NCBI RefSeq assembly: GCF_001025215.1
Contig: NZ_AP012330.1
Span: 1,550,001 to 1,614,000 of the forward strand
Direction: 5' to 3'
Length of the DNA: 64,000 nucleotides
From: Bifidobacterium pseudocatenulatum DSM 20438 = JCM 1200 = LMG 10505
GTDB lineage: Bacteria; Actinomycetota; Actinomycetes; Actinomycetales; Bifidobacteriaceae
The position numbers and the translations under genes are program-made. Within the stretch, counting starts at the first letter, position 1. Each line of letters starts with the position of its first letter. Below, in pieces: positions 18,471 through 35,906 of this stretch. The notes under the pieces were generated by a model. That model had not been told where the DNA came from. It ran no database searches and saw nothing but the letters and a program-made list of their open reading frames with translations.

Positions 18471-19946
18471 TTAATACAAGCCACCGGCTTCGGCGATCTT
18501 GACGGACTCAGGCCAAGCCTCGCCGCCCATCTCAACCGGCACCTGCGGGTAACGTACATGCTTCTCGCCAATACGTGCGGCCACATAATCAGCCACCTTG
18601 TCGAGTGCGACGCGCTCCTGCTGCATGGTATCACGTTCGCGAATGGTGACGGCCTGATCGTCAAGCGTGTCGAAGTCGACGGTGATGCACAGCGGGGTGC
18701 CGATTTCGTCTTCACGGCGATAGCGACGACCGATCGCACCGGCCTCGTCATAGTCGATCATCCAGTCATGCTGACGCAAATCGGCGGCCAGATCGTGTGC
18801 CACGGTCTGCAATTCCGGCTTCTTGCTCAACGGCAGTACAGCGGCCTTGACCGGAGCCAAGCGCGGATCAAGGCGAAGCACGGTGCGCTTATCGACGCCG
18901 CCCTTGGTATTCGGGGCCTCGTCAACGTCGTAGGCGTCAACAAGGAAGGCCATGAGGGAACGGGTCAGGCCGGCGGCCGGTTCGATGACGTACGGCACGT
19001 ATTTTTCGCCGGTGGCCTGGTTGAAGTAGCTCAGATCCTCGCCGGAATGCTTGGCATGCGCGGAAAGATCGAAGTCGGTACGGTTGGCGACGCCTTCAAG
19101 CTCGCCCCAATCGGAACCCTGGAAGCCGAACTTGTATTCGATGTCGACGGTACGCTTCGAATAGTGGGCCAGCTTCTCCTTCGGATGCTCATAATGGCGC
19201 AGGTTCTCCGGCTTCACACCAAGGTCGATGTACCACTGGGTACGCGCGTCGATCCAGTACTGGTGCCATTCCTCATCGGTGCCCGGAGCCACGAAGAATT
19301 CCATTTCCATCTGCTCGAACTCGCGGGTGCGGAAGATGAAGTTGCCCGGAGTGATCTCGTTACGGAAGGACTTGCCCATGTTGGCGATGCCGAACGGCGG
19401 CTTGGAACGCGAAGAAGTCATCACGTTCTTGAAGTCCACGAAAATGCCCTGTGCGGTTTCCGGACGCAGGTAGTGCAGCGAGTTCTCGTCTTCGACCGGT
19501 CCGAGGTGGGTGCGCAGCATCATGTTGAAGTCGCGCGGTTCGGTCCAGTTGCCACGGGTGCCGCAATCCGGGCACACAATGTCTTTCAGGCCGTTTTCCG
19601 GCAGCTTGTCGCCATGCTTTTCGGCATAGGATTCCTCAAGCTTGTCGGCGCGGTGGCGCTTGTGGCAGTTGAGGCATTCGATCAGCGGATCGTTGAACAC
19701 GGACACGTGACCGGAAGCCACCCACACGGCCGGCGGAAGAATAATGGACGTGTCAACGCCCACCACGTCGCCACGGGTGACGACCATGGAACGCCACCAT
19801 TCGCGCTTGATATTGTCTTTCAGCGCAACGCCGAGCGGACCGTAATCCCACGCGGAACGGGTTCCACCATAGATTTCACCGGCGGGAAAAACAAAGCCAC
19901 GACGCTTGGCGAGGGATACGACTTCATCGAGTTTGGATACAGCCAC
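18471..19946 (-). CDS. glyS: Glycyl-tRNA synthetase (dimeric class II)
   Basis: Charges tRNA-Gly. The 491 residues match the alpha2-dimer type: motif 1 region ([14 protein letters not shown]), a zinc-binding-looking insertion with CLNC and CPDC pairs near residues 85-130, motif 2 ([18 protein letters not shown]), motif 3 ([10 protein letters not shown]) and a C-terminal anticodon-binding domain ([15 protein letters not shown]). The start codon is GTG, preceded by AGAAGGTG at good spacing. First gene of the leftward cluster after the pilus locus. Confidence 0.97.
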
Positions 19947-20027: not shown

Positions 20028-20639
20028 TTACTGTTTCGTGGCGTTCTCGTCTTCAACCGTGTCGTTGTCGAGCAATAGCGACCAGATCTTGCAATCGATC
20101 ACCACGGCATTTTTCGTTTCGTCACCGTTTCTGTCAAGTGTGTAGGTCACATTTTCCGGCACGGCGATACGGTTGATGTTCTGCACGGATGCCACGAAAT
20201 TACGCATGGCATCATAGCTTCCCGTGGCGGTAATACTTACCGACACCTGCACCAGCTGACCGGCTTGAATGGTACCTTGCATTTCAGCTGGAATGTCGGC
20301 GTCGACCGCATCATCGAAATTCACCGATTTGATGGCGACGCCGGTTCCCGCAGCGGACGCATCCAACGAATTGATGAATTCCTGCTGGTTATAGCCGTCT
20401 GGAATCTGCCGCTGCAACTGGCGCAAACGGTCTTTCTGCAGGCCGATCGTTTCGCTGGCGATGCGTAATGTTTCGATTTCGTCGCGTGTTTCCTTATTGT
20501 TCTCATCGATTTGCGCAGTTTGCGCGTCGGATGATTTGATATGGCTGATTTGCGGGGAAACGCCGACCAGCCATGTCAGCATGATGACGAAGACAATACC
20601 TGCGGCCAATGCGATCCATGCGATTTTATGCTTGTTCAT
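20028..20639 (-). CDS. pilO: PilO-like type IV pilus alignment protein
   Basis: A 203-residue bitopic protein: short cytoplasmic N-terminus, one membrane segment at about residues 8-27, a coiled-coil stretch (about 40-80) and an extracytoplasmic ferredoxin-like domain with the VSVSITATGSYDAMRNFVASVQNI strand-helix pattern typical of PilO. It would pair with PilN and link PilM and the motor to the pilus base. Last gene of the leftward pilMNO set, 12 bp after pilN, with GGGAGCAATC before the ATG. Assigned by topology and position; direct PilO similarity is modest. Confidence 0.82.
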   Translation of the reverse strand: MNKHKIAWIALAAGIVFVIMLTWLVGVSPQISHIKSSDAQTAQIDENNKETRDEIETLRIASETIGLQKDRLRQLQRQIPDGYNQQEFINSLDASAAGTGVAIKSVNFDDAVDADIPAEMQGTIQAGQLVQVSVSITATGSYDAMRNFVASVQNINRIAVPENVTYTLDRNGDETKNAVVIDCKIWSLLLDNDTVEDENATKQ

Positions 20640-20651
20640 GATTGCTCCCGA

Positions 20652-21620
20652 TCATTCATTGGATGTTTCGTCAGTTGCGGTCGCGCTGTCGGTAGTATCA
20701 GTCGACTCCCCTGCCGCGGCTTTGTTCAGGCTGTCGCGTAGCTGCTGCTGCAATGCTCGGTTGGCTTCGTCAGCACCGGCCGCGTTGTCGCTTCGTGACG
20801 TGGTATTGGTATCCATCTTCAACGACACCGTTCCCGTGTATGTATAGGTGGTGCCGTTTTCATCGCTGTTTTCGGTAATGGAACTCACATAGCCTGTTTT
20901 ATAGGTAGGAATTGCAGCAAAATTACCGATAAAATCTTTTGCAGATATGAAATCTGGAGAAAGAACGGTAAAATCAACGGAAATCACACCATTCCCAGAC
21001 CATACTGAAGATGTAGCGCTATGCGAAGAAGCGTCAGACCCGCCAATCTGGAAGCTGCTCAACGACAGGTTCGTGTACTGGCCTCCGGCTGGCAGCGCGC
21101 CATTGAGCGAATCCACCACCTTCATCCAATCCATTTCGTCGTAGAGCGCGGCGATACGTGACCTTTGCGAATCGGACAGCGAGTTCAACGTGTCTTCCAC
21201 GTCTTTGAATTCCGCCTTTTCCTTCTGCAACGACAGGGTTTTCGCCTGTGCCTCCTCCACGCGATGGTCGGCCCAGCTCACGCGCACCGCCATGCCCGCG
21301 CTGATGGCAATGGCCGCAACCACCACCACGATAAGCACGTATGACAGCAAGTATTTGATGGCACGATCACGGTTGAGCGTCACGATGGAACGTGGCAGCA
21401 GGTTGGCGCGCACATTCCATTCGGCGGGCAGATCAGCCTTTTTGGAGGTTTTCGAACTGCTCGCACGCAGCGCTTTGCCGATGTCGGAAATATTCATCGA
21501 CAAAATCGAGGTTTTCTCGCCATCACTGGTTTCAGGATTCGGATTATCCTTGATTTTGCCGCGTCGACCGCGGTGGGAGCTGCCGATCTGCTTCATGCTT
21601 CCGTTGTTTTTTCTGCTCAT
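20652..21620 (-). CDS. pilN: PilN-like type IV pilus assembly protein
   Basis: A 322-residue protein with a long, Ser/Lys-rich cytoplasmic N-terminus (residues 1-68), the PilN signature VRANLLPRS (about 70-78; the usual motif is INLLP) that binds PilM, a membrane segment at 89-112, a coiled coil and an extracytoplasmic domain. The N-terminal extension is longer than usual, and the C-terminus is a Ser/Thr/Glu-rich tail. Start ATG follows GGTGAACG and is 7 bp after pilM. Confidence 0.85.
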   Translation of the reverse strand: MSRKNNGSMKQIGSSHRGRRGKIKDNPNPETSDGEKTSILSMNISDIGKALRASSSKTSKKADLPAEWNVRANLLPRSIVTLNRDRAIKYLLSYVLIVVVVAAIAISAGMAVRVSWADHRVEEAQAKTLSLQKEKAEFKDVEDTLNSLSDSQRSRIAALYDEMDWMKVVDSLNGALPAGGQYTNLSLSSFQIGGSDASSHSATSSVWSGNGVISVDFTVLSPDFISAKDFIGNFAAIPTYKTGYVSSITENSDENGTTYTYTGTVSLKMDTNTTSRSDNAAGADEANRALQQQLRDSLNKAAAGESTDTTDSATATDETSNE

Positions 21621-21627
21621 CGTCCGT

Positions 21628-22674
21628 TCACCTCGGCTTCTTTCCGATTACCAGTCCAAGCACTGCGCCCAAATCGATCGCGTGCGCCATGATGTTCTGC
21701 CGTTCCACTTCTTTGGAAAGCCGGAAACGGATGAAGGGGTCGCCGATCCGCACCACTTTGTTGATGGAACTGGCCAATACCGGCGGCAGTCCGATCAGCC
21801 GTGCGCCGGTTCCGGTAAGCACCACGCCGCTGATGGTGCCGCCCGCATGGTCCACGTCGTACAGGTTGAGCGTATTGCGGATGCCGACGATCAGCTGCGC
21901 CGTGGTTTCGCGGATGACTTCCTCGGCTTTTTCGAGTCGTTCGTCGCCGGTCACGTTTTGCAGGCCGATCTGGTTTTTGATGCGTTCGGCGTCTTCGAAT
22001 GAGATACTGAGCGCGTTGGCGATGGCGTCAGTCACGTCATCCGCGCCGGATGGCACGACGCGCATGTAGGCGGGCTGCCCGTTTTCGAGCACGATCACGT
22101 CGGTGCCGTTGCCGCTGATGTTGACCACCGCTTCGGTCTGCTGCTGGTTGGTGTCGGCGAACAGTCTGGCAAGCGCGAACGGGCCCGCATCGATCGATGT
22201 GATCACAAATCCCGCGTCTTCGGCTGTGCGCGCGGTTTTTTCCAATCCGTTACGCAATGTCGCCACGAGTATGCCGTGCAACTGTTTGCCTTGTTCGCTG
22301 TCGATGACGTTCAATGGCACGAAGTCGAGCTCGGATTCCTCAATAGGCAGCGGAATCATGCCTTTGGCTTGGAAAGGCAAGGTGGATTTCAGATCGTTCA
22401 GCGACATGTAGGGAAAGTCCGTCTCGCGAAACACCATGCGTCGGCTGGAGTAGACGAGAGCCGTGTCCTCGCGGGGGAATTTGAATCGCTTCACCAGTGT
22501 GTTCAGCAGTCCGGCCACCACATCATGGTCGACCACTTCGCCATCCACTACGGCTCCGTTCGGCAACGGGATCGCCTGGAAATGCTTGATGGTGGGCAGA
22601 TCCGAATACGGGTCTGCTATGACCGCCGCACGGATGGCGTCGTTCGCGATCGACAGCGCCGTTATTGATCTCAT
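21628..22674 (-). CDS. pilM: PilM-like actin-fold ATPase of type IV pili
   Basis: Cytoplasmic FtsA/actin-like protein that binds PilN and couples the assembly motor to the inner-membrane platform. The 348 residues contain the actin phosphate-1 region (ALSIANDAIRAAVI), a phosphate-2 type block (AVVNISGNGTDVIVLENG), the adenosine region (SGVVLTGTGARLIGL) and the PilM C-terminus (GDPFIRF). Strong AAGGAGAGC precedes the ATG. 46 bp separate it from pilD. Confidence 0.9.
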   Translation of the reverse strand: MRSITALSIANDAIRAAVIADPYSDLPTIKHFQAIPLPNGAVVDGEVVDHDVVAGLLNTLVKRFKFPREDTALVYSSRRMVFRETDFPYMSLNDLKSTLPFQAKGMIPLPIEESELDFVPLNVIDSEQGKQLHGILVATLRNGLEKTARTAEDAGFVITSIDAGPFALARLFADTNQQQTEAVVNISGNGTDVIVLENGQPAYMRVVPSGADDVTDAIANALSISFEDAERIKNQIGLQNVTGDERLEKAEEVIRETTAQLIVGIRNTLNLYDVDHAGGTISGVVLTGTGARLIGLPPVLASSINKVVRIGDPFIRFRLSKEVERQNIMAHAIDLGAVLGLVIGKKPR

Positions 22675-22720
22675 GCTCTCTCCTTATATATAACGTGTTG
22701 CAGGTTGGCTGGGGATTGGT

Positions 22721-23557
22721 TCAGGCGAGTCCCGTCACTTGCAAGTACAGTGTGGCGATCGGAGCCCCGACGAATATGCCAAGCCATATGCCGAGCAGCA
22801 TGGACGGTCCGAACGGTATGCCTCCATGCATATCGACTTTTTTGCCGATAATCAGCACAAGACTTAAGAATCCTCCAATAAAGAAGGCTGCGAACGCCCC
22901 GATGATGAATTGCGACCATCCGAGCCAGCCCGTAATCAAGCCAAGTATGAACGCAAGTTTGATATCGCCATCGCCCATGCCACCTTTCCATATGATGGAA
23001 AGCAATAGGTAGAACGCGCCGAGCACTATCGCACATATCACAGCGCGACCGAGCCTGTTCCACTCATTCGTACCGAGTGATGCCAAAGCCAGCAGTGCCA
23101 GTGTTGCAATCAGCGTTGGCAATAGCACAACATTGAGGATCAGATGATGGTCGAGATCAATGTATGCGATCACGATCGAAACCGCTGCGAATACGTAGAG
23201 TTCCGGCAATATCCATGGCGAATACGCGCCGAATAGCGCCCCCAAGGTGACGGCGAGGAACGACAGTCCGCCCAACGCTTCCACAATCGGGTAGCGTACG
23301 GCGATCGGCTCTTTGCAATGCCGGCATTTCGCGCCGAGCACCAGCCAAGAAATGATGGGAATATTGTCATACCATGCGATCGGGGCTTCGCAGTTCGGGC
23401 AGAAACTGCGTTTCGGATTTACCAAGCTGATGTGGTTGGGCACGCGCCAAATCACCACGTTCAGAAACGATCCGAAAATGCAGCCGATTACCAGCGATGC
23501 CACGAGTAGCAGCACCACAGTTGGCGTATCGTTCACAATGCTCATGTTCACATCCAT
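22721..23557 (-). CDS. pilD: Prepilin peptidase / N-methyltransferase (PilD, A24 family)
   Basis: Membrane aspartic peptidase that cleaves prepilin leaders and methylates the new N-terminus. The 278-residue, roughly eight-helix protein has the full tetracysteine motif (FCPNCEAPI and KCRHCKEPI) in the N-terminal cytoplasmic domain and both catalytic Asp motifs, YIDLDHHLI and GMGDGDIKLA. Start uncertain: ATG 23557 or ATG 23545 (MSIVNDT), the latter with GGATGTGAAC ahead. Its substrates in this locus would be the pilins at 27365, 28326 and 29001. Confidence 0.95.
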   Translation of the reverse strand: MDVNMSIVNDTPTVVLLLVASLVIGCIFGSFLNVVIWRVPNHISLVNPKRSFCPNCEAPIAWYDNIPIISWLVLGAKCRHCKEPIAVRYPIVEALGGLSFLAVTLGALFGAYSPWILPELYVFAAVSIVIAYIDLDHHLILNVVLLPTLIATLALLALASLGTNEWNRLGRAVICAIVLGAFYLLLSIIWKGGMGDGDIKLAFILGLITGWLGWSQFIIGAFAAFFIGGFLSLVLIIGKKVDMHGGIPFGPSMLLGIWLGIFVGAPIATLYLQVTGLA

Positions 23558-23569
23558 CTCGCGCAGCGC

Positions 23570-25945
23570 TCACCATGCGATAGTGGACGGGTTCAGTTCT
23601 TTGGATGTCACGTAGCCTTTGGTGGAGGATGGCTCCAATGTGGTAGAACTACCACCGCCATAAATCACGCCGCCGCCTGAGCCGCCTGTTCCGAGGTTAA
23701 CCGAGGCATTCCACACCTGCGATTTGATTTCTCGGTTCAAAAAGTCTCGTGACGATCCGCATTTGGCCATAATCACGTCGGCATGCCCGTCGATACGTCC
23801 GGAGTATGAGGGATTGCCGTCGATTTTGTCTCCCGGATACACTTCCGTCAGGCATTGACCGTTGAGTTGGAACGTACCTTTACTGTGCTCGTCAGACGCT
23901 TTTTCGTTGTATCGGGTGAATGTTGGCGCAGCCGAGCATTCCATAAGTTGGAATTTGCCCGAACCGCCGAACCCATAGCAACGCTTCGACCCGTTCACCA
24001 TCGTCCAAATCTGCGTGTTCACGCCACTGCCGTCACTCGACGTGTCTTCAACATATTCGGCCTGATCGGTTTTACGCTTGGTGGAATCGGACACCCCGCA
24101 GTAGTCGATCTGATGCAGATCGGAAGATGATTGCGCCGGATTGCCATTGATGGTGTTGTGGTAGCAGTATGGGTTGAAATCACCGCCACCCACTCGGCAG
24201 GTTGACGTGTATGCGTCGAATCCGTCTTGCGATGACGAAATGCAGAATCCGGACGTTTCATTGACGATCTGCTTCGTGGCATAGCCGGCTTCTCCCGCCT
24301 GTCCGAACGATGCGGTGGCGTCTTCGAAATCACCGTTCACGTCGAACCAGGATTTCACGTCGGTGAGCGAATAATCCCACTTCGACACCATCAGGAAATG
24401 CGGAGTCAAATCGACAGCATCATCGACGTTGGACGCCCAGTGACCGCCGCTCAGATATTGAATAGTGGCGCCCACATTCGCCTTGTTGGAAACTTCCAGC
24501 ACTTGGAAGCGCGTCTTCTTCTGCATTTGCACACCGCCAACGGCATAGCCTTGCGATTCCGGTAGAGACGCATCATACTTGTTCGCCTCATCGCGCACGC
24601 TATCTAGCTCGTTGTAGTAGCCCGCATTGATGAAACCGTTATAGAACGCCCACTTCTGGTATTTGTTGAGCAGGCTTGACGGATCGTTCTTTTCGTCTTG
24701 CTGCGCTTTCTTGTCAGGATCGGTGTAATAGTCGCTTTGGTAGTTGGGGCCGTACGACTCGCCGCATTTCTGCAATGTGGCGGCTCCTGCAGTGCCTCCG
24801 CCAACATGCGTAATGTCAGCTCCGGTAACGCACAATGTCAGATTGGATGCAGGGCGAATGGAATCATCCTTCCAATACACCCATGTGTTCAGGTCTTTGT
24901 AGGCGCCGTTGGCTTTGCACTGTTCCGTGTAATACAGGTCGTCGCTGCTGGAGTCTTTCTTATGCGCTTGCATAAGAATCACCAACGCCGATCCTTCCAC
25001 CGGCTTGCCGTTCGGGTCAAGCATGGCGTCAAGCGTTTCGACCTTGTCTACAGGCTTGGTGGTGGCAAGCATGCAAGTTTGGTTTGCCGGATTCATAGTG
25101 ATGGTATTGCTCATAGCGTCGGCCGCATTCTTGGAGCCAGGCTTGTTGACATAGTTCACCATGCCGGTCGGATCACCGTTCTCATCGACATCATATGAGG
25201 CGATTTCCTTCCAGGTCGGCTGGTTGGTACGGCGCTCGTTGTTTGGCGCTGCCGCGTAGAAGCCCATACCGAGACGTCCACCCTTGGTGGAGATCACGTA
25301 GCTGTCATCACCGCTCGCTGTCTCGAATTGGTAGATGGCGCTCATGGCTCGGCGCGCGCTGGTTTCCGTACCCGCGCTTCGCCCATTCGGATACCTGTTG
25401 ATATACCCGTAGGAACGCACCCACGCATATTTCGCGTTCTTCAGCTCGCTTTCGGATGTGAGTCGTTTGGCCGGCGATGAGCTTGGATCGTCGTCATAAT
25501 ATCCGATTTGCACTCGGTACGAGATATCGTCTGGAGTGAACGAGCTCACGCCCGTTGCCGACACGTCGTTGCTGACTTCCGCATTGTTGAGCAGCACCGA
25601 CCCGTCCGATGCTGTAGTGAAGGTCTCATCCAAGCTGGCATTGCCAGTGTTTGATGCGGTCGACGGTAGCAGTTTCTTATAGTCCTTGCTTGCTTCCGCT
25701 TCGCGCAGGAAACTCAATGCCACTTCGAGTCCAGATTCGGCGGCATACCCGACTTGCGCGTTCTCCTTATTATTCCTGTACGGCAATGCTTGCGAAAGCA
25801 GTATGGTCATTACCAGTGCCGACGTGGTGAGCACCACCATTACGAACAGTACCGCGAGCATCATGGCCGCGCCCCGCTCCCCCATGCGTTGGCGTAATCT
25901 GGCACGATACCTGCGGTTGAGTCCGGCCCACAATCCGTTCTTCAT
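23570..25945 (-). CDS. Giant PilX-like pilus protein with lectin-like repeats
   Basis: A 791-residue putative minor pilin or tip adhesin. The N-terminus is basic, then RMGERGAAMMLAVLFVMVVLTTSALVM, the single membrane segment typical of the PilX N domain; there is no classical G|FTLVE cleavage site. The remaining 740 residues are predicted outside. They hold at least three Q-x-W motifs (W near 431, 647 and 745), each in a Cys...L.xC context (LCVTG ... LQKCG; FCISS ... CRVG; QCLTE ... MAKCG), resembling ricin-B type beta-trefoil repeats. ATG 25945 follows GGGAAGGTT; an in-frame TTG two codons earlier is unlikely. It lies between pilC and pilD, so it belongs to the pilus operon. The lectin reading is inference from motif spacing. 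Confidence 0.8.
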   Translation of the reverse strand: MKNGLWAGLNRRYRARLRQRMGERGAAMMLAVLFVMVVLTTSALVMTILLSQALPYRNNKENAQVGYAAESGLEVALSFLREAEASKDYKKLLPSTASNTGNASLDETFTTASDGSVLLNNAEVSNDVSATGVSSFTPDDISYRVQIGYYDDDPSSSPAKRLTSESELKNAKYAWVRSYGYINRYPNGRSAGTETSARRAMSAIYQFETASGDDSYVISTKGGRLGMGFYAAAPNNERRTNQPTWKEIASYDVDENGDPTGMVNYVNKPGSKNAADAMSNTITMNPANQTCMLATTKPVDKVETLDAMLDPNGKPVEGSALVILMQAHKKDSSSDDLYYTEQCKANGAYKDLNTWVYWKDDSIRPASNLTLCVTGADITHVGGGTAGAATLQKCGESYGPNYQSDYYTDPDKKAQQDEKNDPSSLLNKYQKWAFYNGFINAGYYNELDSVRDEANKYDASLPESQGYAVGGVQMQKKTRFQVLEVSNKANVGATIQYLSGGHWASNVDDAVDLTPHFLMVSKWDYSLTDVKSWFDVNGDFEDATASFGQAGEAGYATKQIVNETSGFCISSSQDGFDAYTSTCRVGGGDFNPYCYHNTINGNPAQSSSDLHQIDYCGVSDSTKRKTDQAEYVEDTSSDGSGVNTQIWTMVNGSKRCYGFGGSGKFQLMECSAAPTFTRYNEKASDEHSKGTFQLNGQCLTEVYPGDKIDGNPSYSGRIDGHADVIMAKCGSSRDFLNREIKSQVWNASVNLGTGGSGGGVIYGGGSSTTLEPSSTKGYVTSKELNPSTIAW

Positions 25946-25966
25946 GTTCAACCTTCCCGTTTTCGC

Positions 25967-27241
25967 TTACGCTTGCCCGTTGATGGCGTCGAACATGGAG
26001 AACATCGGCATGTACAATGCCACCACCATGAAGCCGACCACGCTACCGAGCACCAGAATCATCAACGGTTCCAGCAGCGAAGTGAGCTGTTTGGCGATGG
26101 ATTGCGCTTCTTCGTCATACGCTTTGCCCGCGCTGGCGAGCATCTGGTCGATGGCGCCGGAATCCTCACCGATCGCCACCATCTGCACCATCATGTTCGG
26201 GAACACTTTTTCGGTACCCATACTGTCCGCCAGCCTATAGCCGCGTTCCACGAGTCGAGACACTCGTTTGGACGCTTCGTCGATTACATAATTGCCGGAT
26301 GTGGATCCGACAATGTCAAGCGCCTGCAGAATGGGCACGCCCGAAGCGAGCATGGATGTGAAATTGTTGCAGAATCGCGCCAATGCCACATTGGTGGTCA
26401 GTTTGCCGAACACGGGCGCCTTCAACGTGAACGGATCCCACCAGGTACGAATGATGTCTTTGTTGCGATTGCGCTTCCAAAACATGACGAACGCCACCGC
26501 GCACACAATGATCACGGGAATGCCAACCGGTGCGGTCTTGCCCATATCAACCATGATCTGCGTGACCCATGGCAGTTCCGCGCCCATCGACGCATACATG
26601 CTGTCGAACATGGGCACGATGGTCAGCAGCATCACGCCCACCAGCAGCACAGCAATGCCGAGCACCACCACCGGGTAAGCCAGTGCGCCTTTGATCTGAC
26701 CTTGCAAACGCACGTCCGCTTCAAAGCTGTCGGCCACGGTAATCAGGGATTTGTCAAGGAAGCCGCCGGTTTCGCCGGCCCGCACCATGTTGATCATAAT
26801 GGGCGGAAACAGATGGTCGGGATTATTGTCCATTGCTTCGGAAAACGATGATCCCGCCTCAACCTGCTGCATGCAGTCACGTACCGCATTGCGCAGTTTC
26901 ACATTTCCGATTTGTTCAGTAACGATATTCAGTGCGCGAATCAGGGAGACGCCTGCCGCCACCATGGTGGCAAGCTGACGTGACATAACCGCGAAGTCTT
27001 TTTTGCTTGGATATTTTTCGAATGCTTTGATTTCAATATTGGTATTGAGACCGGTGCCTGCGTTCACGTCAACAAGTTCCGTTGGAATCAGACCGAGTTT
27101 ATTCACGCGATCGATGGCCTGATCTCGCGTCTGCGCTTCGATAACGCCCTTCTGCTTGGTGCGGCCGTCAGCGGAAACACCCTTGTAACGCCACTTCTTG
27201 GTGCCGTTTTGAAATGCCACTTGCGCCTGTTCCCTGGCCAT
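25967..27241 (-). CDS. pilC: Type IV pilus platform protein PilC (GspF family)
   Basis: Polytopic platform protein on which the PilB and PilT motors act. From MAREQAQ there are 424 residues: an N-terminal cytoplasmic region (KWRYKGVSADGRTKQKGVIEAQ), then two T2SSF domains (about 90-215 and 295-415) with ATMVAAGVSLIRAL and TSMLASGVPILQAL, and three membrane segments. The start at 27241 is chosen because GGGGGAG precedes it and the family begins here, over a 33-codon frame extension. Confidence 0.94.
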   Translation of the reverse strand: MAREQAQVAFQNGTKKWRYKGVSADGRTKQKGVIEAQTRDQAIDRVNKLGLIPTELVDVNAGTGLNTNIEIKAFEKYPSKKDFAVMSRQLATMVAAGVSLIRALNIVTEQIGNVKLRNAVRDCMQQVEAGSSFSEAMDNNPDHLFPPIMINMVRAGETGGFLDKSLITVADSFEADVRLQGQIKGALAYPVVVLGIAVLLVGVMLLTIVPMFDSMYASMGAELPWVTQIMVDMGKTAPVGIPVIIVCAVAFVMFWKRNRNKDIIRTWWDPFTLKAPVFGKLTTNVALARFCNNFTSMLASGVPILQALDIVGSTSGNYVIDEASKRVSRLVERGYRLADSMGTEKVFPNMMVQMVAIGEDSGAIDQMLASAGKAYDEEAQSIAKQLTSLLEPLMILVLGSVVGFMVVALYMPMFSMFDAINGQA

Positions 27242-27364
27242 TACTCCCCCATGGAATGATTGACGAACAATGGAACGAATATGGATACGGAACAAGGTAT
27301 CGGAGCGATACCTCATACGCTCCGATACCTTTAGTCCCACGCGAATTATTCGCTATGCCTTTTA

Positions 27365-27811
27365 TTATTTAGTACCAGTCTTAGAGACGACACCGTTGGC
27401 CGAGTCATACAGGAAAATCGCTGTACCAGAGTTCTCGTTCTCGCCCTCGATAGTGTAGGAGTTATCTGCTTTACCGGTAATCTTCAGGGTAACACCCTCA
27501 GTTACGGTAATCGTATTGCCTCCAAGCGTGCAGCCCGTATTCTGGCTCTTACTGCACGTGGCCGTTGCACCATTAATCTCAGACGGAAGCTTGCCATTGT
27601 TGGCAGTGGACGCAGTTTCAACCACAAGGCTGGCGTTCTTGACGTCGGACTCGGTCTGGGAGTTCCAGGCCGACTTGCGCTGGTTCAGGTAGATCGGCAC
27701 GGAGATGGCGGCGAGGATGCCGATGATGATGACCACCACGAGCAGCTCGACGAGGGTGAAGCCCTTTTCGCCCTTGGCGCGGCGGTTGAGTGCGTTGCGC
27801 ACGCTCTTCAT
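27365..27811 (-). CDS. pilA: Major type IV pilin (PilA)
   Basis: A 148-residue prepilin with a 17-residue basic leader (MKSVRNALNRRAKGEKG), cleavage expected between Gly and Phe of KG|FTLVELL, with the essential Glu at mature position 5, a hydrophobic alpha-1 helix and a small globular domain. Two cysteines (CSKSQNTGC) could form the pilin disulfide. AAGGATTC is well spaced before the ATG at 27811. It is the first gene after the terminator at 28274 and lies 123 bp before pilC. Small size, own long leader region and position favour its being the main subunit. Confidence 0.93.
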   Translation of the reverse strand: MKSVRNALNRRAKGEKGFTLVELLVVVIIIGILAAISVPIYLNQRKSAWNSQTESDVKNASLVVETASTANNGKLPSEINGATATCSKSQNTGCTLGGNTITVTEGVTLKITGKADNSYTIEGENENSGTAIFLYDSANGVVSKTGTK

Positions 27812-28273
27812 AATTGAATCCTTCTTTCCTTCGGGAAAGGTCGCCGCTCGCATCCCACGATGGAGCTTCGCGGCGTTCTTCTATCGATCGTCCCCTTATG
27901 GGGGCTGCTGGCTCACATAACCAACAGTCCTAACTTTATCCGCATTGACATCGTTTGCAGAACCATTATTCCGGCGTCAATCGTTTTACGAGCGTTTCAT
28001 TTTCGATTCATTTTCCCCTCATCCTTCATCCGCACAAAAGCGCTTTAGTTTACCCCACAACCCCCTTCACAACCATCAAGCAAATCACACTTTTTCAAGC
28101 GGACACAAAAGGTACAACACAAAACCAAAATCGTGCAACAAAAAATACAACACCACAAATAGCTTGTTTTTCAGTACAATCGCTCAGCAAATCTTTGCAG
28201 TCACGTTTTTTTGAAAAAACTGGAATAACCACCCTTTTCGGGCGTGTCGCAGGGTGCTGACGGGGCGACAAAA
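27812..28273 (-). promoter_or_regulatory. 462-bp gene-free upstream region of pilA
   Basis: No convincing gene. The stretch is strikingly A+T-rich compared with its neighbours, especially 27910-28230, and short plus-strand frames here have no ribosome site. Because a terminator closes the upstream minor-pilin genes, a pilA promoter and a long 5' leader are expected here. I could not fix a single -35/-10 pair. Confidence 0.55.
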
Positions 28274-28301
28274 ACGGCTGGCTCCGTAAGGAACCAGCCG
28301 T
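28270..28301 (-). terminator. Rho-independent terminator after the PilW-like gene
   Basis: 12-bp stem with one mismatch (28274-28285 with 28290-28301), GTAA loop, followed on the minus strand by TTTTTG. It separates the two minor pilin genes from pilA. Confidence 0.85.
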
Positions 28302-28325
28302 CTGCCGCAAGACCTATCGGAACAC

Positions 28326-28988
28326 TCAGACACACGGAGTGAAATCGATTGCAGTTCCACCCGATTTCACATTGCGTGCGGTGAACGACGTGGACGTATT
28401 CGACGTGACCGGCTTGCCGCTCACATACGACCCCGTCACCGGCGAATAACGCACCACCCGATTGGTGCCATCCACCGTGAATAATCGCGAGGCGAACATC
28501 GAATCATCAGACGTGCCTCCCGACTCGTTGTTCATTACCGACCCCAACACCGCGCGCGTGCTCCATGACGTGACGGACGCATCATACGGCTTCGTTTTTA
28601 CCTTCACGCTACCGTAATCGCTTACCGTACCGTTCTTCCACGTGGCGTCCTGGTACGTGATCACCACGCACTGCTTCGCACCAGAATCCCCCGGAGTGAC
28701 CATGGTGATCGTATGGTTCGTGGCGTCATACTCAACACCCTCCGCGTAGCGCACATACCGGTCGAGGCTTTGCACCGACGTGGCTATTTCCGTGGAAGAC
28801 CTGCTTCGTATCGCATCCGCGCTGGTGGAATGCAGGTATTGCACGATCGCCGTGGTGAACATGGTGGAGACGATGGCGAAGATGAACAGCGACACCATCA
28901 TCTCCACCAAGGTGACGCCGCTTTCACCGCGCGCCATACGTTGCGCGACGGCGCGAATACGCAGTTTTCCGCTTGTTGTTCCGCTCAT
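28326..28988 (-). CDS. Minor pilin, PilW-like
   Basis: A 220-residue prepilin with a 23-residue basic leader ending in RGESG, cleavage G|VTLVEMMVSLFIF, Glu at mature position 5 and a hydrophobic helix. The C-terminal two thirds is a soluble domain of unknown fold. Minor pilins of the PilV/PilW group prime pilus assembly. ATG follows GAGGGG. It is 12 bp after the PilV-like gene. Assignment to the W rather than another minor-pilin class is by order and general pattern. Confidence 0.85.
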   Translation of the reverse strand: MSGTTSGKLRIRAVAQRMARGESGVTLVEMMVSLFIFAIVSTMFTTAIVQYLHSTSADAIRSRSSTEIATSVQSLDRYVRYAEGVEYDATNHTITMVTPGDSGAKQCVVITYQDATWKNGTVSDYGSVKVKTKPYDASVTSWSTRAVLGSVMNNESGGTSDDSMFASRLFTVDGTNRVVRYSPVTGSYVSGKPVTSNTSTSFTARNVKSGGTAIDFTPCV

Positions 28989-29000
28989 TGCAACCCCTCA

Positions 29001-29786
29001 CTAGATGATGAGCTTGTTGTCGACACCAATATCCAGCAGTTCCGACGTGGTGTACAGGCAGGTTTTGCCCTGATGCATGTTGTCGTCCCAGGTGACACCC
29101 ACCACCACGCGGATCATGGGCATATACGTGTGCGCACCGAACGTGAACGCGCCCGATACCGTTTTGCCCGGATCCAGAATGTCGGCCGTAGCGCTTGTTG
29201 AGGTATTGGCCGTATAGCTCGTTGCGGAACTACGGGAAATGCCCAGCTGAGATGCGGTCTTGCACGAGATCTCGCCGCTGGCACGGAAACAGCGCTCCAC
29301 CACCGTGTTCACCGTGTATTCGGTATGCTTGGCGTCCTTGCCCGCAGTGGCACGAACCGGCTGAATATACTTGCTCTTGTCTGGATCAGGCGAACTGGTA
29401 TAGCTCAGATCCGCCAATTGCGACGCGATGGCGCCAACGTCGGAAAGATTCTTTTGCGCGGCGGTGACGGACGTTTCCCCCATGCCTTTGATGAGTTCAT
29501 CGAGATATTGGTTGGCGTCTACATTGGCGATCTGCGCACGCATTCTTTCCATGCCGTCGTCGCCCAGCGACACGGCGGTGGACCGCTGCTGCTGCGCATA
29601 TGACGTGCGAATGGCCGTAATGGCGAACTGTGCGGCGGCAAGTCCCGTAATGCTCAACACCACGATCGCCACCAGCACTTCCACCAACGTGAAGCCGGAC
29701 TCGCCACGTTTTGGCAATCGATTGACGCGACTCGCCGCAACCCCTGAATCGGGGGCGTCTCCCGCTGTGCGCAAGCTGTACTCCAT
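29001..29786 (-). CDS. Minor pilin, PilV-like
   Basis: A 261-residue prepilin with a leader of about 31 residues ending in KRGESG, cleavage G|FTLVEVLVAI, Glu at mature position 5 and a 20-residue hydrophobic helix. The soluble part contains several Cys (VVERCFRASGEISC, GKTCLY) that may pair. The start MEYSLRTAG is fixed by an ideal AAGGAG six bases before the ATG, over a 20-codon frame extension. First minus-strand gene of the pilus locus, divergent from pilB. Confidence 0.87.
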   Translation of the reverse strand: MEYSLRTAGDAPDSGVAASRVNRLPKRGESGFTLVEVLVAIVVLSITGLAAAQFAITAIRTSYAQQQRSTAVSLGDDGMERMRAQIANVDANQYLDELIKGMGETSVTAAQKNLSDVGAIASQLADLSYTSSPDPDKSKYIQPVRATAGKDAKHTEYTVNTVVERCFRASGEISCKTASQLGISRSSATSYTANTSTSATADILDPGKTVSGAFTFGAHTYMPMIRVVVGVTWDDNMHQGKTCLYTTSELLDIGVDNKLII

Positions 29787-30122
29787 GAGCAGCTCCTTCA
29801 CAAGATGCCACCCCATCATTGGAAGCGGCAGGAATTCGGCACGCAACCAAACGCGGTGCCATAAACATGAGTTACTGTATCACGATATTCTGCCAACGTT
29901 TTCACAGCAACATATTTCTCAAAAAACTTTGCCCCGATTAGCTTTTACCTGTTTTTGCGGCTACAATGCTGATTTAGCAGTACACAATACTGCAATCGTT
30001 GTAGCTCACATGACTTCGAACAACTGAACATCAGCCTCCCCACAAATGCTGCCGTTTGCTTGGGGTTTCATGTTATGCCGTATGACAGGCGCATAAGCGC
30101 GCATGCGGTGCAGGAGGTCATT
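29787..30122. promoter_or_regulatory. 336-bp divergent regulatory region of the pilus locus
   Basis: Gene-free A+T-rich region between pilV-like and pilB. Candidate minus-strand promoter: TTGCTG (29905-29910) and TATCGT (29882-29887), 17-bp spacer. Candidate plus-strand promoter: TTAGCT (29938-29943) and TACAAT (29962-29967), 18-bp spacer. A small GCAGTA/TACTGC hairpin lies just downstream near 29977-29993. The promoter calls are consensus matches only. Confidence 0.45.
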
Positions 30123-31880
30123 ATGAGCGACGCCGGTTCGGGAGGCCGTTTCCCCTTCCTCAGGCGAAACAAAAACAGCGACACGCCGAACGCTTTCCCG
30201 CAAAGTATGGATCCGATCGCGCCGACAACCGGCGAGATCCATCAGGTGTTCACGCCGAGCACACCACGCCATGCGGCAATGACAAGCGACGCCACCGGAG
30301 ATTTTCCCGCCATGCCAACGTCCACCGAAGGCATGGACGAACAGACCGAACGCCAATATGCCATGGCGTTGGCGCAAGGCATGAGCCTGCCGTTCGTGGA
30401 CCTCAATGAATACCAGATCGACAAAGAAGTCATCAGCATGGTTCCCGACGATCTGTGCCGACGCAACCAGCTTCTGCCGCTTTCCATCGTCAACGGGCGC
30501 ATCGCCGTAGCCATGGCGAATCCGAAAAACTTCGCCGCGGTAGACGATGTTTCCGCAACAACCGGCATGCCCGTCATCGCCATGGTCGCCATGCCATCGC
30601 AGGTACGCGACTGCATCAACCGGTTCCTGCGCGCCAATGCGGAGTTGACCGAACTATCGCACGAGATCGCCGCGACCGCGAAAAAAGAAGTCGACCTTGA
30701 ACAAGACGACAGCGAAGACGCCTCCCCCGTGGCACGCTTCGTAAGTCTGCTCATCAACCAGGCCATCGACGACCACTGCTCCGATATCCATATCGAACCG
30801 CAGGAAGACGGTCTGCTCGTACGCTACCGCATCGACGGCGTGTTGCATATCTTCCAAAAAGCGCCACGCGCCATGACCCAAGGTGTGATCAGCCGCATTA
30901 AGGTCATGGCCGAAATGGATATCGGCGAGCGCCGCAAGCCGCAGGATGGCCGTATTACCGTACGTCACAACGGTCAGAAGGTTGATCTTCGCGTGGCGGC
31001 ATTGCCTACGGTGTGGGGCGAGAAAATCGTCATGCGTATTTTGAGCACGCCTTCGGGCAATCTCAAAGTGGAGGATCTAAATTTCAGCGAACGCAATTTC
31101 GATGTGTTTTCCAAAGCGTACAACCGCCCGTACGGCATGGTGTTGGTGACTGGTCCGACCGGTTCGGGTAAGTCGACCACGTTGTATGCGACGTTGGGCG
31201 ATGTGGCCCGCCCGGAAATCAACATCATCACGGTTGAAGACCCTGTGGAATTCCGCATGGAGGGCATCAATCAGGTGCAGGTGAACAATAAGGCGGGTAT
31301 GACCTTTGCCGCCGCGTTGCGTTCGATTCTTCGTGCCGATCCTGATGTGGTGCTGATCGGTGAGATTCGAGACGAGGAGACGGCGACCATTGCGATCGAG
31401 GCTTCGCTGACGGGCCATTTGGTGCTGTCCACGTTGCACACCAATGATGCTCCGAGTGCGGTGACGCGTTTGACGGAAATGGGCGTGGAACCGTTTTTGG
31501 TGAGCTCGTCGCTGGCTGCGGTGATGGCGCAGCGTCTGGCGAGGCGCCTGTGCAAGAAATGCCGGAAAGCCGATACGGCCACTCCCGTGGAGTTGAAGAT
31601 GATGGGTGTGCCATATACGCCCGGCTCTCCGTTGCCGACCGTGTACCGTGCGATGGGTTGCCGTGAATGTTCCAACACCGGATATCACGGGCGTGTGGCC
31701 ATTCAGCAGGTAATGGGCGTGGACACGCAGATGGAGGATTTGATCGCGCGTGGCGCCACGTCGCTGGAAATCGAGCAGGCGGCCAAGTCGAAAGGCATGA
31801 CGTCGCTTCGTGAGGATGGCTGGCAGAAGGTTCTGCAAGGCATTACTTCCGTGGATGAAGTGCTTCGCGTGACCGTGTAG
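30123..31880 (+). CDS. pilB: Type IV pilus extension ATPase PilB
   Basis: Hexameric motor that drives pilus assembly. The 585-residue protein has an N-terminal GspE/MshEN-type domain (about 85-190), then the ATPase core: Walker A GPTGSGKSTT near residue 344, Asp box (EDPVE), Walker B with VVLIGEIRD, and His box. A zinc-binding four-Cys motif, CKKC near residue 477 and CREC about 40 residues later, separates PilB from PilT. The start is set by AGGAGG five bases before ATG 30123, over 21 upstream codons. Divergent from the pilin genes and 46 bp ahead of pilT. Confidence 0.96.
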   Translation: MSDAGSGGRFPFLRRNKNSDTPNAFPQSMDPIAPTTGEIHQVFTPSTPRHAAMTSDATGDFPAMPTSTEGMDEQTERQYAMALAQGMSLPFVDLNEYQIDKEVISMVPDDLCRRNQLLPLSIVNGRIAVAMANPKNFAAVDDVSATTGMPVIAMVAMPSQVRDCINRFLRANAELTELSHEIAATAKKEVDLEQDDSEDASPVARFVSLLINQAIDDHCSDIHIEPQEDGLLVRYRIDGVLHIFQKAPRAMTQGVISRIKVMAEMDIGERRKPQDGRITVRHNGQKVDLRVAALPTVWGEKIVMRILSTPSGNLKVEDLNFSERNFDVFSKAYNRPYGMVLVTGPTGSGKSTTLYATLGDVARPEINIITVEDPVEFRMEGINQVQVNNKAGMTFAAALRSILRADPDVVLIGEIRDEETATIAIEASLTGHLVLSTLHTNDAPSAVTRLTEMGVEPFLVSSSLAAVMAQRLARRLCKKCRKADTATPVELKMMGVPYTPGSPLPTVYRAMGCRECSNTGYHGRVAIQQVMGVDTQMEDLIARGATSLEIEQAAKSKGMTSLREDGWQKVLQGITSVDEVLRVTV

Positions 31881-31926
31881 TTGTGTAATCGTGTGACCGC
31901 GTTTTCAACATATGTAAAGGACAATG

Positions 31927-33867
31927 ATGACCGATATTGAACAGCAACCCGAGCTGAAAACCGAAATGAACACCGCGACGGATCCCGATGCGCAGCCGAC
32001 TTGGGATGCGAACACCGATTTGTCTGGTTTGAAAGGTGTGACCATTCCCAGTACCGCTCCTTCATTCAACGAGGATCCGCGTAGGGGACGCCATTGGTCG
32101 CCCGACAATGCGATTCAGGCTGACGATGACAGTTTGCGCAGTATTTTCGCGTCGCTTGACGCCATGCCCGCGTTGCGGCATGGTTCCGGTACCGTTCCCG
32201 ACCCCATGTCTAAGGCCGCGGTCGAGCAACAGCCGGCGGCCGAGCCTCAACAGAGCGCACAGCGGCAGTCTATGCAACAGTCAGCTGCCCCGCAAGCCGT
32301 TGCATCACAATCTGTAGCGGAACCGCAGCCCGCTCCGACACGGCCTGCGGAAACACCGCTCATTGCAGAACAACAGGAACTCTCCTACGACACCGCTTTT
32401 CCGGAAACCCCGGAAAACGAAGCCGTGGATCAGCAGAATCTGCAATTCGACGATGACGTGACGGAAGTCACCCCTGCATTCGAGTATCATGGACCGATCC
32501 AGCAAATCGACGGCGATCCGCCATCATTCATTCCAGGCGGCACGCCGTTCGCGCAACAGCCGGACGACTATGCGGCGTACGAGGAGAACGCGCAGACCAT
32601 GCAGCCTTCCGCCATCAACCATATTGCGCAGCCTACGCCCGCTGCCAGACCGCAACCCAATATGAACAACAGGCTAATCGTGGATTTCATAGTGCCCGAA
32701 ACCAATGATTCCGACGAGGACGCTGTTCCCGGACAACGCAGAATCAAAGCGCACCAGGTCAAAGAAACATTGCATGCCGAACATCCCGATGCGGATCCGG
32801 AATTCGTGGCTGCCATATGCCAGCTGGTGGAATTGAACGCGTCCGATCTTCATCTGGTGGTCAACGATCCGCCAATGCTGCGCGTGGATGGCAAGCTGCG
32901 CCCCGCCAAAGGGCTGAGCGTGTGGAACAAGGACCGCACGTATGAAGCCATCAAAGTGATGACCAACGAGCTGGAGATGGAACGGTTCAAAGACGATTTG
33001 GAACTTGATATTTCATTCTCCATCGGCGATCTGCTGCGATTCCGCGTCAACGTATACCGCGACCGTTTGGGCGTGTGCGCGGCATTACGAACCATTCCCA
33101 CGGAAATCAAAACCGCGCAGGAGCTTGGTCTCGACCCGCATATCGCCGATCTGGCGTTACTGCCGCGTGGACTCGTGCTCGTATGCGGTCCGACCGGCTC
33201 CGGCAAATCCACCACGCTCGCCGCGATTGTCGACAGAGCGAATGCCGAACGCGCCGACCATATCATCACCATTGAAGACCCGATCGAATTCGTGCATCAA
33301 CACAAGCGTTGCGTGATGAGCCAGCGTGAAGTGGGAACCGACACCAAAAGTTTCGCGGAAGCGCTTAAACGCGCGCTTCGTGAAGATCCCGACATTATCG
33401 AAGTGGGCGAGCTTCGAGACCTCGAAACCATTTCCACCGCGTTGACCGCCGTGGAAACCGGCCACTTGGTGTTCGCCACCCTGCACACGCAGGACGCCGG
33501 TTCGACCGTGGACCGTCTGATCGACGTGTACCCGGAAAATCAGCAGCAGCAGATTCGCGTGCAGGTGGCCTCCACTCTGCGCGCGGTGGTCGTGCAAACC
33601 CTGATTCCACGTGCCAGCGGGCATGGCCGCGCTCCTGCCACCGAAGTGATGATCAACACTCCGGCCGTGGCCGCGTTGATTCGCGGAGGCAAGGCGCATC
33701 AGATTCGTACCGTGCTGCAATCCGGCGAAAAGGAAGGCATGCATACGCTTGACCAAGATCTGGCGAGACTCGTCAACAAGGGCGTCATCACCTTCGAAGA
33801 CGCTCTTGCCAAGGTGCAGGTCCTCGAGGAATTCGAAAAACTCTGCGGCGCCCGCTCCTCCTTCTAA
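31927..33867 (+). CDS. pilT: Type IV pilus retraction ATPase PilT with long N-terminal extension
   Basis: Retraction motor of twitching pili. Residues from about 285 match PilT: PAS-like N-domain (ASDLHLVVNDPPMLRVDGKL), Walker A GPTGSGKSTT near 421, ITIEDPIE, Walker B region EDPDIIEVGELRD and HLVFATLHT, and no CxxC zinc motif. The first 280 residues are a Pro/Gln/Ala/Glu-rich, probably disordered extension not found in ordinary PilT (about 350 residues). ATG 31924 and 31927 are adjacent; AAAGGA fits the second better. Presence of PilT implies retractile pili. Confidence 0.94.
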   Translation: MTDIEQQPELKTEMNTATDPDAQPTWDANTDLSGLKGVTIPSTAPSFNEDPRRGRHWSPDNAIQADDDSLRSIFASLDAMPALRHGSGTVPDPMSKAAVEQQPAAEPQQSAQRQSMQQSAAPQAVASQSVAEPQPAPTRPAETPLIAEQQELSYDTAFPETPENEAVDQQNLQFDDDVTEVTPAFEYHGPIQQIDGDPPSFIPGGTPFAQQPDDYAAYEENAQTMQPSAINHIAQPTPAARPQPNMNNRLIVDFIVPETNDSDEDAVPGQRRIKAHQVKETLHAEHPDADPEFVAAICQLVELNASDLHLVVNDPPMLRVDGKLRPAKGLSVWNKDRTYEAIKVMTNELEMERFKDDLELDISFSIGDLLRFRVNVYRDRLGVCAALRTIPTEIKTAQELGLDPHIADLALLPRGLVLVCGPTGSGKSTTLAAIVDRANAERADHIITIEDPIEFVHQHKRCVMSQREVGTDTKSFAEALKRALREDPDIIEVGELRDLETISTALTAVETGHLVFATLHTQDAGSTVDRLIDVYPENQQQQIRVQVASTLRAVVVQTLIPRASGHGRAPATEVMINTPAVAALIRGGKAHQIRTVLQSGEKEGMHTLDQDLARLVNKGVITFEDALAKVQVLEEFEKLCGARSSF

Positions 33868-33902
33868 CCTCGCCGTACCCATACACCATCTTTACACCTA
33901 TC

Positions 33903-35717
33903 ATGAGCAACACAGCAGAAACACCAACCATCATCCAGCCCGACGTTTCGGCGAACCGCGTGACGAACCTTCGAAAAAGACTCTTCACCTGGTTCGCCGA
34001 ACAACGGCTGCACTGCATTGTCTTCATCGCCTACGTGACAGTGACCGTCACCGTGTCGTGTTTTCACGAACCATGGTTTGATGAGGCGCAAGCTTGGCTG
34101 ATCGCACGTGATTGCTCATGGAAGGAACTGCTTACCGTACGCACCCATTACGAAGGACACCCACCTCTTTGGTGGATGCTGCTTGCCATTCCCGCCAAAC
34201 TTGGCATGCCTTACGAAATAGGATTGAAATCCCTCAATCTTATGTGCGCCGCGCTGATGATCTGGCTTTTGGAATTCAAAACGAAACTACCAGAATTACT
34301 AAAGGTAATACTGCCATTTTCCTATTTTCTTTGCTACCAGTATGGCGTAACTTCCAGACCATATGCGCTTATGATCGCCGCAATGCTGCTCATAGCCATC
34401 AATTGGAACAACCGCAACACCAAGCCATGGCCAGTCATACTCAGCATGATGCTGCTATGCGCCACGAGCTCTTACGGATTGGCAATCGCCGGCATGCTTG
34501 CCTTGAATTGGACGATTCAATTTCTCTGCGGCGAACGCTCGCTTATAAAAAACAAGCAGCGTTTCGCGGGACTTGTTCTGCTACTGGTATTCGCCATTAT
34601 ACTGCTCCTCAACGTACTCCCCGCACCCGGCACATACCACGGTGACTTTGACATACATGGCACTGCAACAACATCACCCGCATGGGTTTCCGTATTCAAC
34701 ACCTGGCTGGTAATGCCTTCCGAGACGTTGTTCACTTCAACCCTGTCGGATGGCAATATGCAGTTCATCGCTCTCACGCCAAGCGAGCTGTTTATGCCGT
34801 GCGTAATGTCATGCCTGATGTGGTGTTTTCTTATTCAGATTTGCCTACGCCGGAAAACCGCATCATTGCTGCTCACCACATACTTGGGTATAAGCGTTGC
34901 GTTCACCGCGCATCTTTCCATGCATCATGCGGGAATCATCTTGGGATTCTTCATCGCCATTCTCGCCATCGATTGCGATATCGAAAAAATCAATTCCAAC
35001 GATTGGCCTCAGTGGATCCGTAATCTCAACAACCGTGTTATGACTCTTCTTGGACCGAAGAAAACGGAACGGTATCTCCGTTTCTTCAAAATCCTCGGTC
35101 TTATCTTCATGCTTGTCAGCGTGTATTGGACGGCAAGCGCCAGTATTTGCGATATTCGGTACGACTATTCGTCTTCCCGGGCGGTAGCGTCTTTTATCAA
35201 AACCAACCATTTGGAGCAATACCGTTGGATGGCAGGCTGGACACGCGTCAGCAAGAACGACACCGCTTCCAATCCAGAAATCAACAAAATCATCGACAAA
35301 GGCGGATATTGCGGCGGCACCGACTGCATCGACTACACTTCTTGGTACGGCAGCACCCTTATCGATTCAGCCCCTTACTTCGACCATACGCTTCTTGCCA
35401 ATGCATACAAGGGACGAAGCTATTCGTCGTGGGAATGGTGCGTTGACCCCTATGCGGGAAAGAAAGACATCGAAACATGGAAATCGTGGGGCGAACCCGA
35501 ATTCTACGACACTCTGTATCAGCCATTTTTCTTCTCCGACCTTGGTTACGACAGAAACCATTACACGAAAATCAAAATCGCCGAAACCAAGACACCTTGG
35601 AAAAGCACATGGTCGGAAGGCGCCTGCGAAATTTACGTGCGCAACGACATTTACGAGAACGTATTGCATTCGCCCGATCCTGGAATCGACTGGCCCGACG
35701 GCGCAACGCGCAGATAA
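33903..35717 (+). CDS. Polytopic membrane protein, probable GT-C glycosyltransferase
   Basis: A 604-residue membrane protein with about 10-11 hydrophobic segments and a C-terminal extracytoplasmic part of about 170 residues. The first outside loop after helix 1 holds HEPWFDEAQAW with an Asp-Glu pair at 60-61, the place and form of the metal-binding acidic motif in GT-C enzymes (ArnT/PMT/oligosaccharyltransferase type, lipid-phosphate sugar donors), followed by EGHPPLWW, also typical. Donor and acceptor are unknown. It starts 35 bp after pilT without a clear ribosome site. Linkage to the pilus genes suggests pilin glycosylation, but wall or exopolysaccharide work is equally possible. Confidence 0.7.
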   Translation: MSNTAETPTIIQPDVSANRVTNLRKRLFTWFAEQRLHCIVFIAYVTVTVTVSCFHEPWFDEAQAWLIARDCSWKELLTVRTHYEGHPPLWWMLLAIPAKLGMPYEIGLKSLNLMCAALMIWLLEFKTKLPELLKVILPFSYFLCYQYGVTSRPYALMIAAMLLIAINWNNRNTKPWPVILSMMLLCATSSYGLAIAGMLALNWTIQFLCGERSLIKNKQRFAGLVLLLVFAIILLLNVLPAPGTYHGDFDIHGTATTSPAWVSVFNTWLVMPSETLFTSTLSDGNMQFIALTPSELFMPCVMSCLMWCFLIQICLRRKTASLLLTTYLGISVAFTAHLSMHHAGIILGFFIAILAIDCDIEKINSNDWPQWIRNLNNRVMTLLGPKKTERYLRFFKILGLIFMLVSVYWTASASICDIRYDYSSSRAVASFIKTNHLEQYRWMAGWTRVSKNDTASNPEINKIIDKGGYCGGTDCIDYTSWYGSTLIDSAPYFDHTLLANAYKGRSYSSWEWCVDPYAGKKDIETWKSWGEPEFYDTLYQPFFFSDLGYDRNHYTKIKIAETKTPWKSTWSEGACEIYVRNDIYENVLHSPDPGIDWPDGATRR

Positions 35718-35810
35718 CAAGTGGACCGGCATCCAACTGGAACGTGTCGATTGTTCGTTTATGCAAAACGTGCCACTGTCAGCACCTTTGTATAGGTTAG
35801 ATATGTTATG

Positions 35811-35905: not shown

Positions 35906-35906
35906 A

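Follow-up and report, generated by a model that had tools for sequence, protein, structure and literature searches.

A type IVa pilus (T4aP) locus is contained in the 64,000-nucleotide stretch of the Bifidobacterium pseudocatenulatum DSM 20438 genome analysed here (the window; positions 1,550,001-1,614,000 of a single-contig genome of 2,313,752 bases). Its gene content supports a complete, secretin-less and presumably retractile pilus. One of the products, PilX, is a predicted modular minor pilin that appears, from sequence profiles and structure models, to contain two beta-trefoils in tandem, resembling an R-type lectin. Our interpretation, to which we assign a probability of about 0.7, is that this is a retractable pilus of a monoderm bacterium whose PilX lectin would grip glycans at the tip.

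A first-pass annotation, made from the letters of the window, had described the pil genes as grouped in divergent operons, and all the genes it named are indeed open frames, located at 20028-33867 in two divergent groups. Left unnamed were pilX, a very large prepilin-like gene in the pilC-pilD interval (23570-25945), and a glycosyltransferase C (GT-C)-like gene at 33903-35717, the end of which is also the end of the annotated interval. The genes pilB and pilT, followed by the GT-C-like gene, are on the plus strand; the nine other pil genes are on the minus strand. The locus is flanked by glyS (18471-19946, minus) on one side and by a thiamine pyrophosphate (TPP) riboswitch with thiM (35808-36776, plus) on the other. 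The features are as follows.

20028..20639, minus: pilO, inner-membrane alignment protein (PF04350, 35.4 bits, cut-off 22)
20652..21620, minus: pilN, named by its position between pilM and pilO (PilN families unmatched)
21628..22674, minus: pilM, actin-like cytoplasmic platform protein (TIGR01175, 149.8 bits, cut-off 133; PF11104, 111.1 bits)
22721..23557, minus: pilD, prepilin peptidase (PF06750 and PF01478 above cut-off)
23570..25945, minus: pilX, K-like minor pilin of 791 aa whose C-terminal region is lectin-like (no Glu at +5; conserved start; nine invariant Cys)
23693..24280, minus: second beta-trefoil of PilX, residues 556-751
24626..25090, minus: probable first beta-trefoil of PilX, spanning roughly residues 286-440, approximate limits (structural alignment to two-trefoil lectin chains)
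25967..27340, minus: pilC, platform protein (PF00482, 205.8 bits for the best stretch, cut-off 25.2, and one more stretch)
27365..27853, minus: pilA, probable major pilin (N_methyl above cut-off; Glu5)
28326..28988, minus: pilW, J-like minor prepilin (N_methyl above cut-off; Glu at +5 read from sequence)
29001..29846, minus: pilV, I-like minor prepilin (N_methyl above cut-off; Glu at +5 read from sequence)
30060..31880, plus: pilB, extension ATPase (best NCBIfam model TIGR02538; PF00437 above cut-off)
31924..33867, plus: pilT, retraction ATPase with long N-terminal extension (TIGR01420, 442.4 bits, cut-off 319.1, residues 297-632)
33903..35717, plus: GT-C-like membrane glycosyltransferase gene, adjoining pilT (conserved FDEAQ and EGHPP stretches)

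The novelty claimed for such a pilus in bifidobacteria has been superseded. Among 117 Bifidobacterium reference strains, Lugli et al. 2026 (PMC13091076) found the same 11-gene T4aP locus in 13, predicting it to be functional in 12 of these, and named B. adolescentis and B. pseudocatenulatum as carriers; the presence of the pilus in bifidobacteria is thus no longer new. Their locus has the same eleven pil genes, in the same genus, with pilB and pilT opposed to the other nine. In their tests on starch agar, three B. adolescentis strains carrying the locus formed interstitial, twitching-like halos and ATCC 15703, a strain without it, formed none; on plates lacking starch no strain formed a halo. 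The original observation was correct, and a putative lectin-bearing tip pilin is a new lead. What is new here is the reading of PilX as a lectin-like minor pilin: Lugli et al. use only the term pseudopilin, and a word search of their main text returned neither lectin nor glycosyltransferase, glyS or Pseudoscardovia.

PilX, a K-like pilin with a lectin-like region

In 13 of 13 aligned PilX sequences the residue at +5 is Leu or Met and never Glu; the start is conserved and nine Cys are invariant. The pilX start used here is the ATG common to the relatives, while the listed frame opens two codons upstream, at 25951. A beta-trefoil fold was found for PilX: two-trefoil lectin chains align to the PilX model from residues 286-290 to residues 746-748, with a large root-mean-square deviation (11.8-16.6). 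When alignments of PilX were compared by sequence with the PDB, the only matches were to lectin-type chains, at E-values of 0.066-0.4.

Several observations weigh against a lectin-bearing tip pilin. The window PilX taken alone matches no Pfam family, Ricin_B_lectin included, and no PDB sequence; Ricin_B_lectin is touched weakly by only 3 of the 13 PilX relatives (best E-value 0.0015). The mean predicted local distance difference test (pLDDT) scores of the PilX models are 54.8 and 61.0, and Foldseek searches with these models gave no hit at E < 0.001. The NCBIfam GspK model NF037980 scores 14.6 bits on PilX (E-value 0.018, cut-off 130), so far below the cut-off that we call PilX K-like rather than GspK. 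Two of the 15 other genomes with pilT gave no BLAST match to PilX: G092, and G073, where the contig measures 6.7 kb. Also, the starch halos may reflect growth.

PilX-like lectin pilins in other Actinomycetales

Relatives were sought in two samples with one genome per species: 396 genomes at the level of the order and 189 genomes of Bifidobacteriaceae. PilT was above the cut-off in 129 of the 396 order-level genomes, hence actinobacteria commonly carry T4aP genes. The PilX profile matched 10 of the 396; in the eight genomes outside the genus the match was through the prepilin N-terminus only. Seven of these eight proteins were scanned from the match onwards (the eighth, L085, being left out), and all seven passed the Ricin_B_lectin cut-off, with E-values from 1.7e-7 to 1.2e-15. 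In a profile comparison the lectin parts of these proteins matched that of bifidobacterial PilX with a probability of 97.3% (E-value 2.3e-11, 162 columns); the C-terminal part of PilX is homologous to pilins that bear Ricin_B_lectin.

In seven of eight fetched stretches (L092-L098) the PilX-like gene is immediately upstream of pilD, amid relatives of pilT, pilC, pilA, pilV and pilM; the eighth (L099) has pilX and pilV alone. A profile built from the seven lectin pilins matched 32 of the 396 genomes, 30 of them outside the family; the other two, the window's genome and G113, match through the N-terminus alone. PilT at an E-value of 1e-60 or better is present in 31 of the 32 profile-positive genomes versus 131 of the 396 overall (hypergeometric probability 2e-15, with relatedness of the genomes ignored). 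The exception is G113, in which contig C12 (L045) stops ∼1.9 kb beyond pilB. The PilX-like gene is 3.7-5.7 kb from the listed PilT in at least 23 of the 30 outside-family genomes; in four of the 30 (G202, G234, G275 and G375) the listed pilT is on a different contig.

In four of the fetched stretches (L092, L093, L094 and L097) no window gene matched an interval of ∼0.8-1.3 kb between pilV and pilW, where an additional minor pilin may be encoded.

We found no relevant report of a trefoil or ricin-type pilin in the open-licence literature consulted. A survey of modular pilins (PMC8179133) is described as covering 264 architectures in >1,200 proteins; trefoil pilins may already be listed in its dataset.

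It is improbable, in our view, that PilX uses its lectin-like region for something other than sugar binding, such as protein contact, passage through the cell wall or a role in a short secretion-type pseudopilus. Beta-trefoils have many functions, and K-like pilins are described in type II secretion too (PMC9934059). Yet disulphide-rich relatives of R-type lectin character exceed the Ricin_B_lectin cut-off, and a separate PilT favours a retractile pilus.

The type IVa machinery

PilT, PilC, PilD, PilM and PilO match the family models expected of a monoderm type IVa pilus. The earlier proposal of a full and presumably retractile T4aP is supported. For PilB the best model, TIGR02538, gave 601.6 bits, below the curated cut-off of 675.65, and the GspE model 574, below 630.25. 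PilN had no match to a PilN family in Pfam or NCBIfam; its relative was recognised in the same position in three of the eight fetched Actinomycetales stretches (L092, L093 and L094). The pilA, pilW and pilV products, with N_methyl above the cut-off, are class III prepilins, and Glu5 is invariant across 14 aligned PilA-type pilins (nine loci and the window). A secretin was said to be absent, and PF00263 was not found in the whole genome by a search that was positive in 6 of 14 control genomes; the PilP search matched none of its control genomes and hence carries no weight on the presence or absence of PilP. Elsewhere in the genome, at 189 kb, a third PF00437 ATPase scores above the cut-off and is, we infer, that of the Tad system. 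Another A24 peptidase, the second in the genome, is encoded at 988 kb.

The core of PilT is preceded by a Gln/Pro-rich N-terminal extension of ∼296 residues (window 31924-32811); ∼105 residues near the N-terminus have 47% identity with B. ruminantium, and pilT open frames in relatives range from 589 to 1309 aa. The pilT of L023, labelled pilB by BLAST, is an open frame of 702 aa whose core resembles PilT, which agrees with the hidden Markov model.

The true starts may be the ATG at 27241 for pilC and the ATG at 27811 for pilA. Between pilW and pilA there is a gap of 472 bases (27854-28325), and some relatives have extra pilA-type genes near here. The consensus scan for promoters and terminators returned fewer sites than shuffled sequences (5 versus a mean of 10.9, and 13 versus 16.6), with no clear promoter in the gap 27854-28325; lacking an excess over shuffles, the scan gives no promoter evidence.

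Distribution, origin and loss in Bifidobacteriaceae

Mapping by species, proposed in the first-pass annotation and carried out with PilT, placed the gene above the cut-off in 16 of the 189 Bifidobacteriaceae genomes. Bifidobacterium accounts for 11 of the 16, a result that agrees in kind with Lugli et al. (PMC13091076). The pil genes are at the same site, flanked by glyS and/or thiM, in Pseudoscardovia and other members of the family. To examine this site we used GlyS, matched in 60 of 61 genomes of the genus; 30 loci were fetched, and without the window's own locus and two from pilT-bearing genomes they gave 27 T4aP-negative loci. In 12 of these 27 thiM is directly upstream of glyS.

A scar of the locus is present in one close T4aP-negative relative, G033, whose GlyS is 100% identical. 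Between glyS and the TPP riboswitch (L053, 3056-3230) 27 residues match the end of PilO and 25 match the end of the GT-C-like protein (E-values 2e-7 and 1e-8, in a small set searched). With these two stumps at the site, at least the G033 lineage lost the locus. The other 26 T4aP-negative loci showed no stump of this kind; a weak match in L073 (E-value 0.27) was taken as chance. At least one loss has therefore contributed to the patchy distribution, a point that is relevant when presence and absence are read as niche adaptation.

One pil locus, L027 (G062:C8:102483-122002), is decaying: pilB and pilM are in pieces and pilX is matched only from window residue 274. In B. apri, L035 (G021:C34:183433-184449) has a second pilT above the cut-off, with no other window pil gene matched in the 19.5 kb around it.

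One could suppose that the window locus itself is a relic, seldom or never expressed in the strain and on its way to loss. PilT is missing from 173 of the 189 family genomes, the G062 locus has fragmented pilB and pilM, G033 retains a deletion scar and the promoter scan showed no excess. Against this, all the genes in the window are open and have retained their domains, and high within-species conservation of the locus is reported by Lugli et al. (PMC13091076). We consider a relic unlikely.

Trees of PilB/PilC/PilM/PilD and of the neighbours GlyS/Dus/FtsZ for 12 taxa differ by a Robinson-Foulds distance of 2 (two taxa, L047 and L048, contributed a partial GlyS and no Dus or FtsZ). Since the pil and neighbour trees are nearly alike, we did not adopt the idea that the family gained the whole locus recently from an outside donor. 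Simple vertical descent has evidence against it, too. The exact neighbour topology is rejected by the pil data (approximately unbiased test, 3e-55); support for the branch of the neighbour tree that conflicts is 77. From B. boum to B. thermophilum JCM 1207 the distance is 0.005 for the Pil proteins and 0.037 for their neighbours, whereas from B. boum to B. apri it is 0.613 and 0.076, the Pil proteins being eight times further apart than the neighbours. These clashing branch lengths suggest some exchange of entire pil alleles at this location. The B. boum-group pil loci compared were L042, L043, L044 and L045; two records named B. thermophilum land in different sub-groups.

The GT-C-like gene

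The protein encoded next to pilT had no match in Pfam, NCBIfam or PDB; we take it to be of the GT-C class from its FDEAQ and EGHPP stretches, which are conserved in four aligned relatives. The gene adjoins pilT in 6 of the 16 pilT-bearing genomes, on the strand of pilT in two and on the opposite strand in four, and in two of the six it is split into two frames. Relatives are present in 29 of the 189 genomes, including some without pilT. With such partial adjacency, mixed strand and relatives in genomes lacking pilT, we did not count the gene as a constant component of the pilus locus. In favour of membership, the G033 scar keeps its end alongside the end of pilO. The protein is a candidate for an enzyme of pilin glycosylation.

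Proposed mechanism and comparison with known systems

In the mechanism that we propose, PilD would cleave the prepilins, and PilB, acting on a platform of PilC and PilMNO, would polymerise PilA into a filament that PilT would retract in this strain. Assembly would be primed by three minor pilins, the I-like PilV, the J-like PilW and PilX, which is K-like and has no Glu5; for that reason their final place would be the tip, where PilX would display its beta-trefoil, R-type-lectin-like region. Extension, a grip on glycan by the tip and retraction could then draw the cell onto, or move it along, surfaces rich in glycans, for example starch grains, plant polysaccharide or mucin.

Parallels exist for parts of this scheme. 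The PilA-PilB-PilC minor pilin complex of Streptococcus sanguinis, as presented in PMC9934059, likewise belongs to a monoderm type IV pilus; one of its minor pilins is modular, bears a lectin and is proposed to be located at the tip. However, that lectin is a concanavalin A-like beta-sandwich with an Ig-like module, while the PilX region is a predicted trefoil; and the pilin without Glu5 is there PilA, not the lectin pilin, whereas here the pilin without Glu5 itself bears the trefoil region. The GspK/HIJK tip complex is similar in that PilX, like K, has no Glu5 and PilV and PilW are similar to I and J in size and order, and dissimilar in the low GspK score of PilX. We know of no lectin in the K component of type II secretion. 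Other T4aP of Actinobacteria, described in PMC8325347 for Actinoplanes zoospores and Rubrobacter, are likewise type IV pili and serve surface adhesion. The bifidobacterial Tad (T4cP) pilus is also a type IV filament in the same genus; it differs, according to PMC13091076 and PMC6916266, in having Flp pilins, no PilT and a separate locus.

Another function proposed at first pass, DNA uptake, is one that retractile T4aP mediate in other bacteria, and the genome does have ComEA (above its cut-off, at ∼1,110,984) and ComEC (at ∼1,112,021), which the pilus could feed. Still, ComEC is present in 175 of the 189 family genomes, the 16 with pilT all included, so that comEC persists without this pilus and uptake gains no specific support; the com genes are also >400 kb from the pil locus. 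A pilus serving mainly DNA uptake seems to us a poor prospect. Adhesion, by comparison, gains specific support from the predicted lectin-like PilX, a protein that the first-pass annotation had not singled out.

A broader picture is possible, though we put it at somewhat less than even odds. Many Actinomycetales and the few bifidobacteria that retained it would share a sugar-seeking grapple, a retractable pilus with an R-type-lectin, K-like cap; within Bifidobacteriaceae the pilus would be an ancient feature of the glyS-thiM site, repeatedly lost and kept where a grip on glycans pays, and the halos of B. adolescentis would come from binding by the tip lectin and not from growth alone.

The value added by our analysis is a testable mechanism, with PilX as a named candidate for the tip adhesin, and its predicted sugar-binding region would be common to T4aP of other Actinomycetales. 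If PilX does bind starch, plant glycans or mucin, this would help to explain why the pilus is retained in a few gut species and why the halos are confined to starch.

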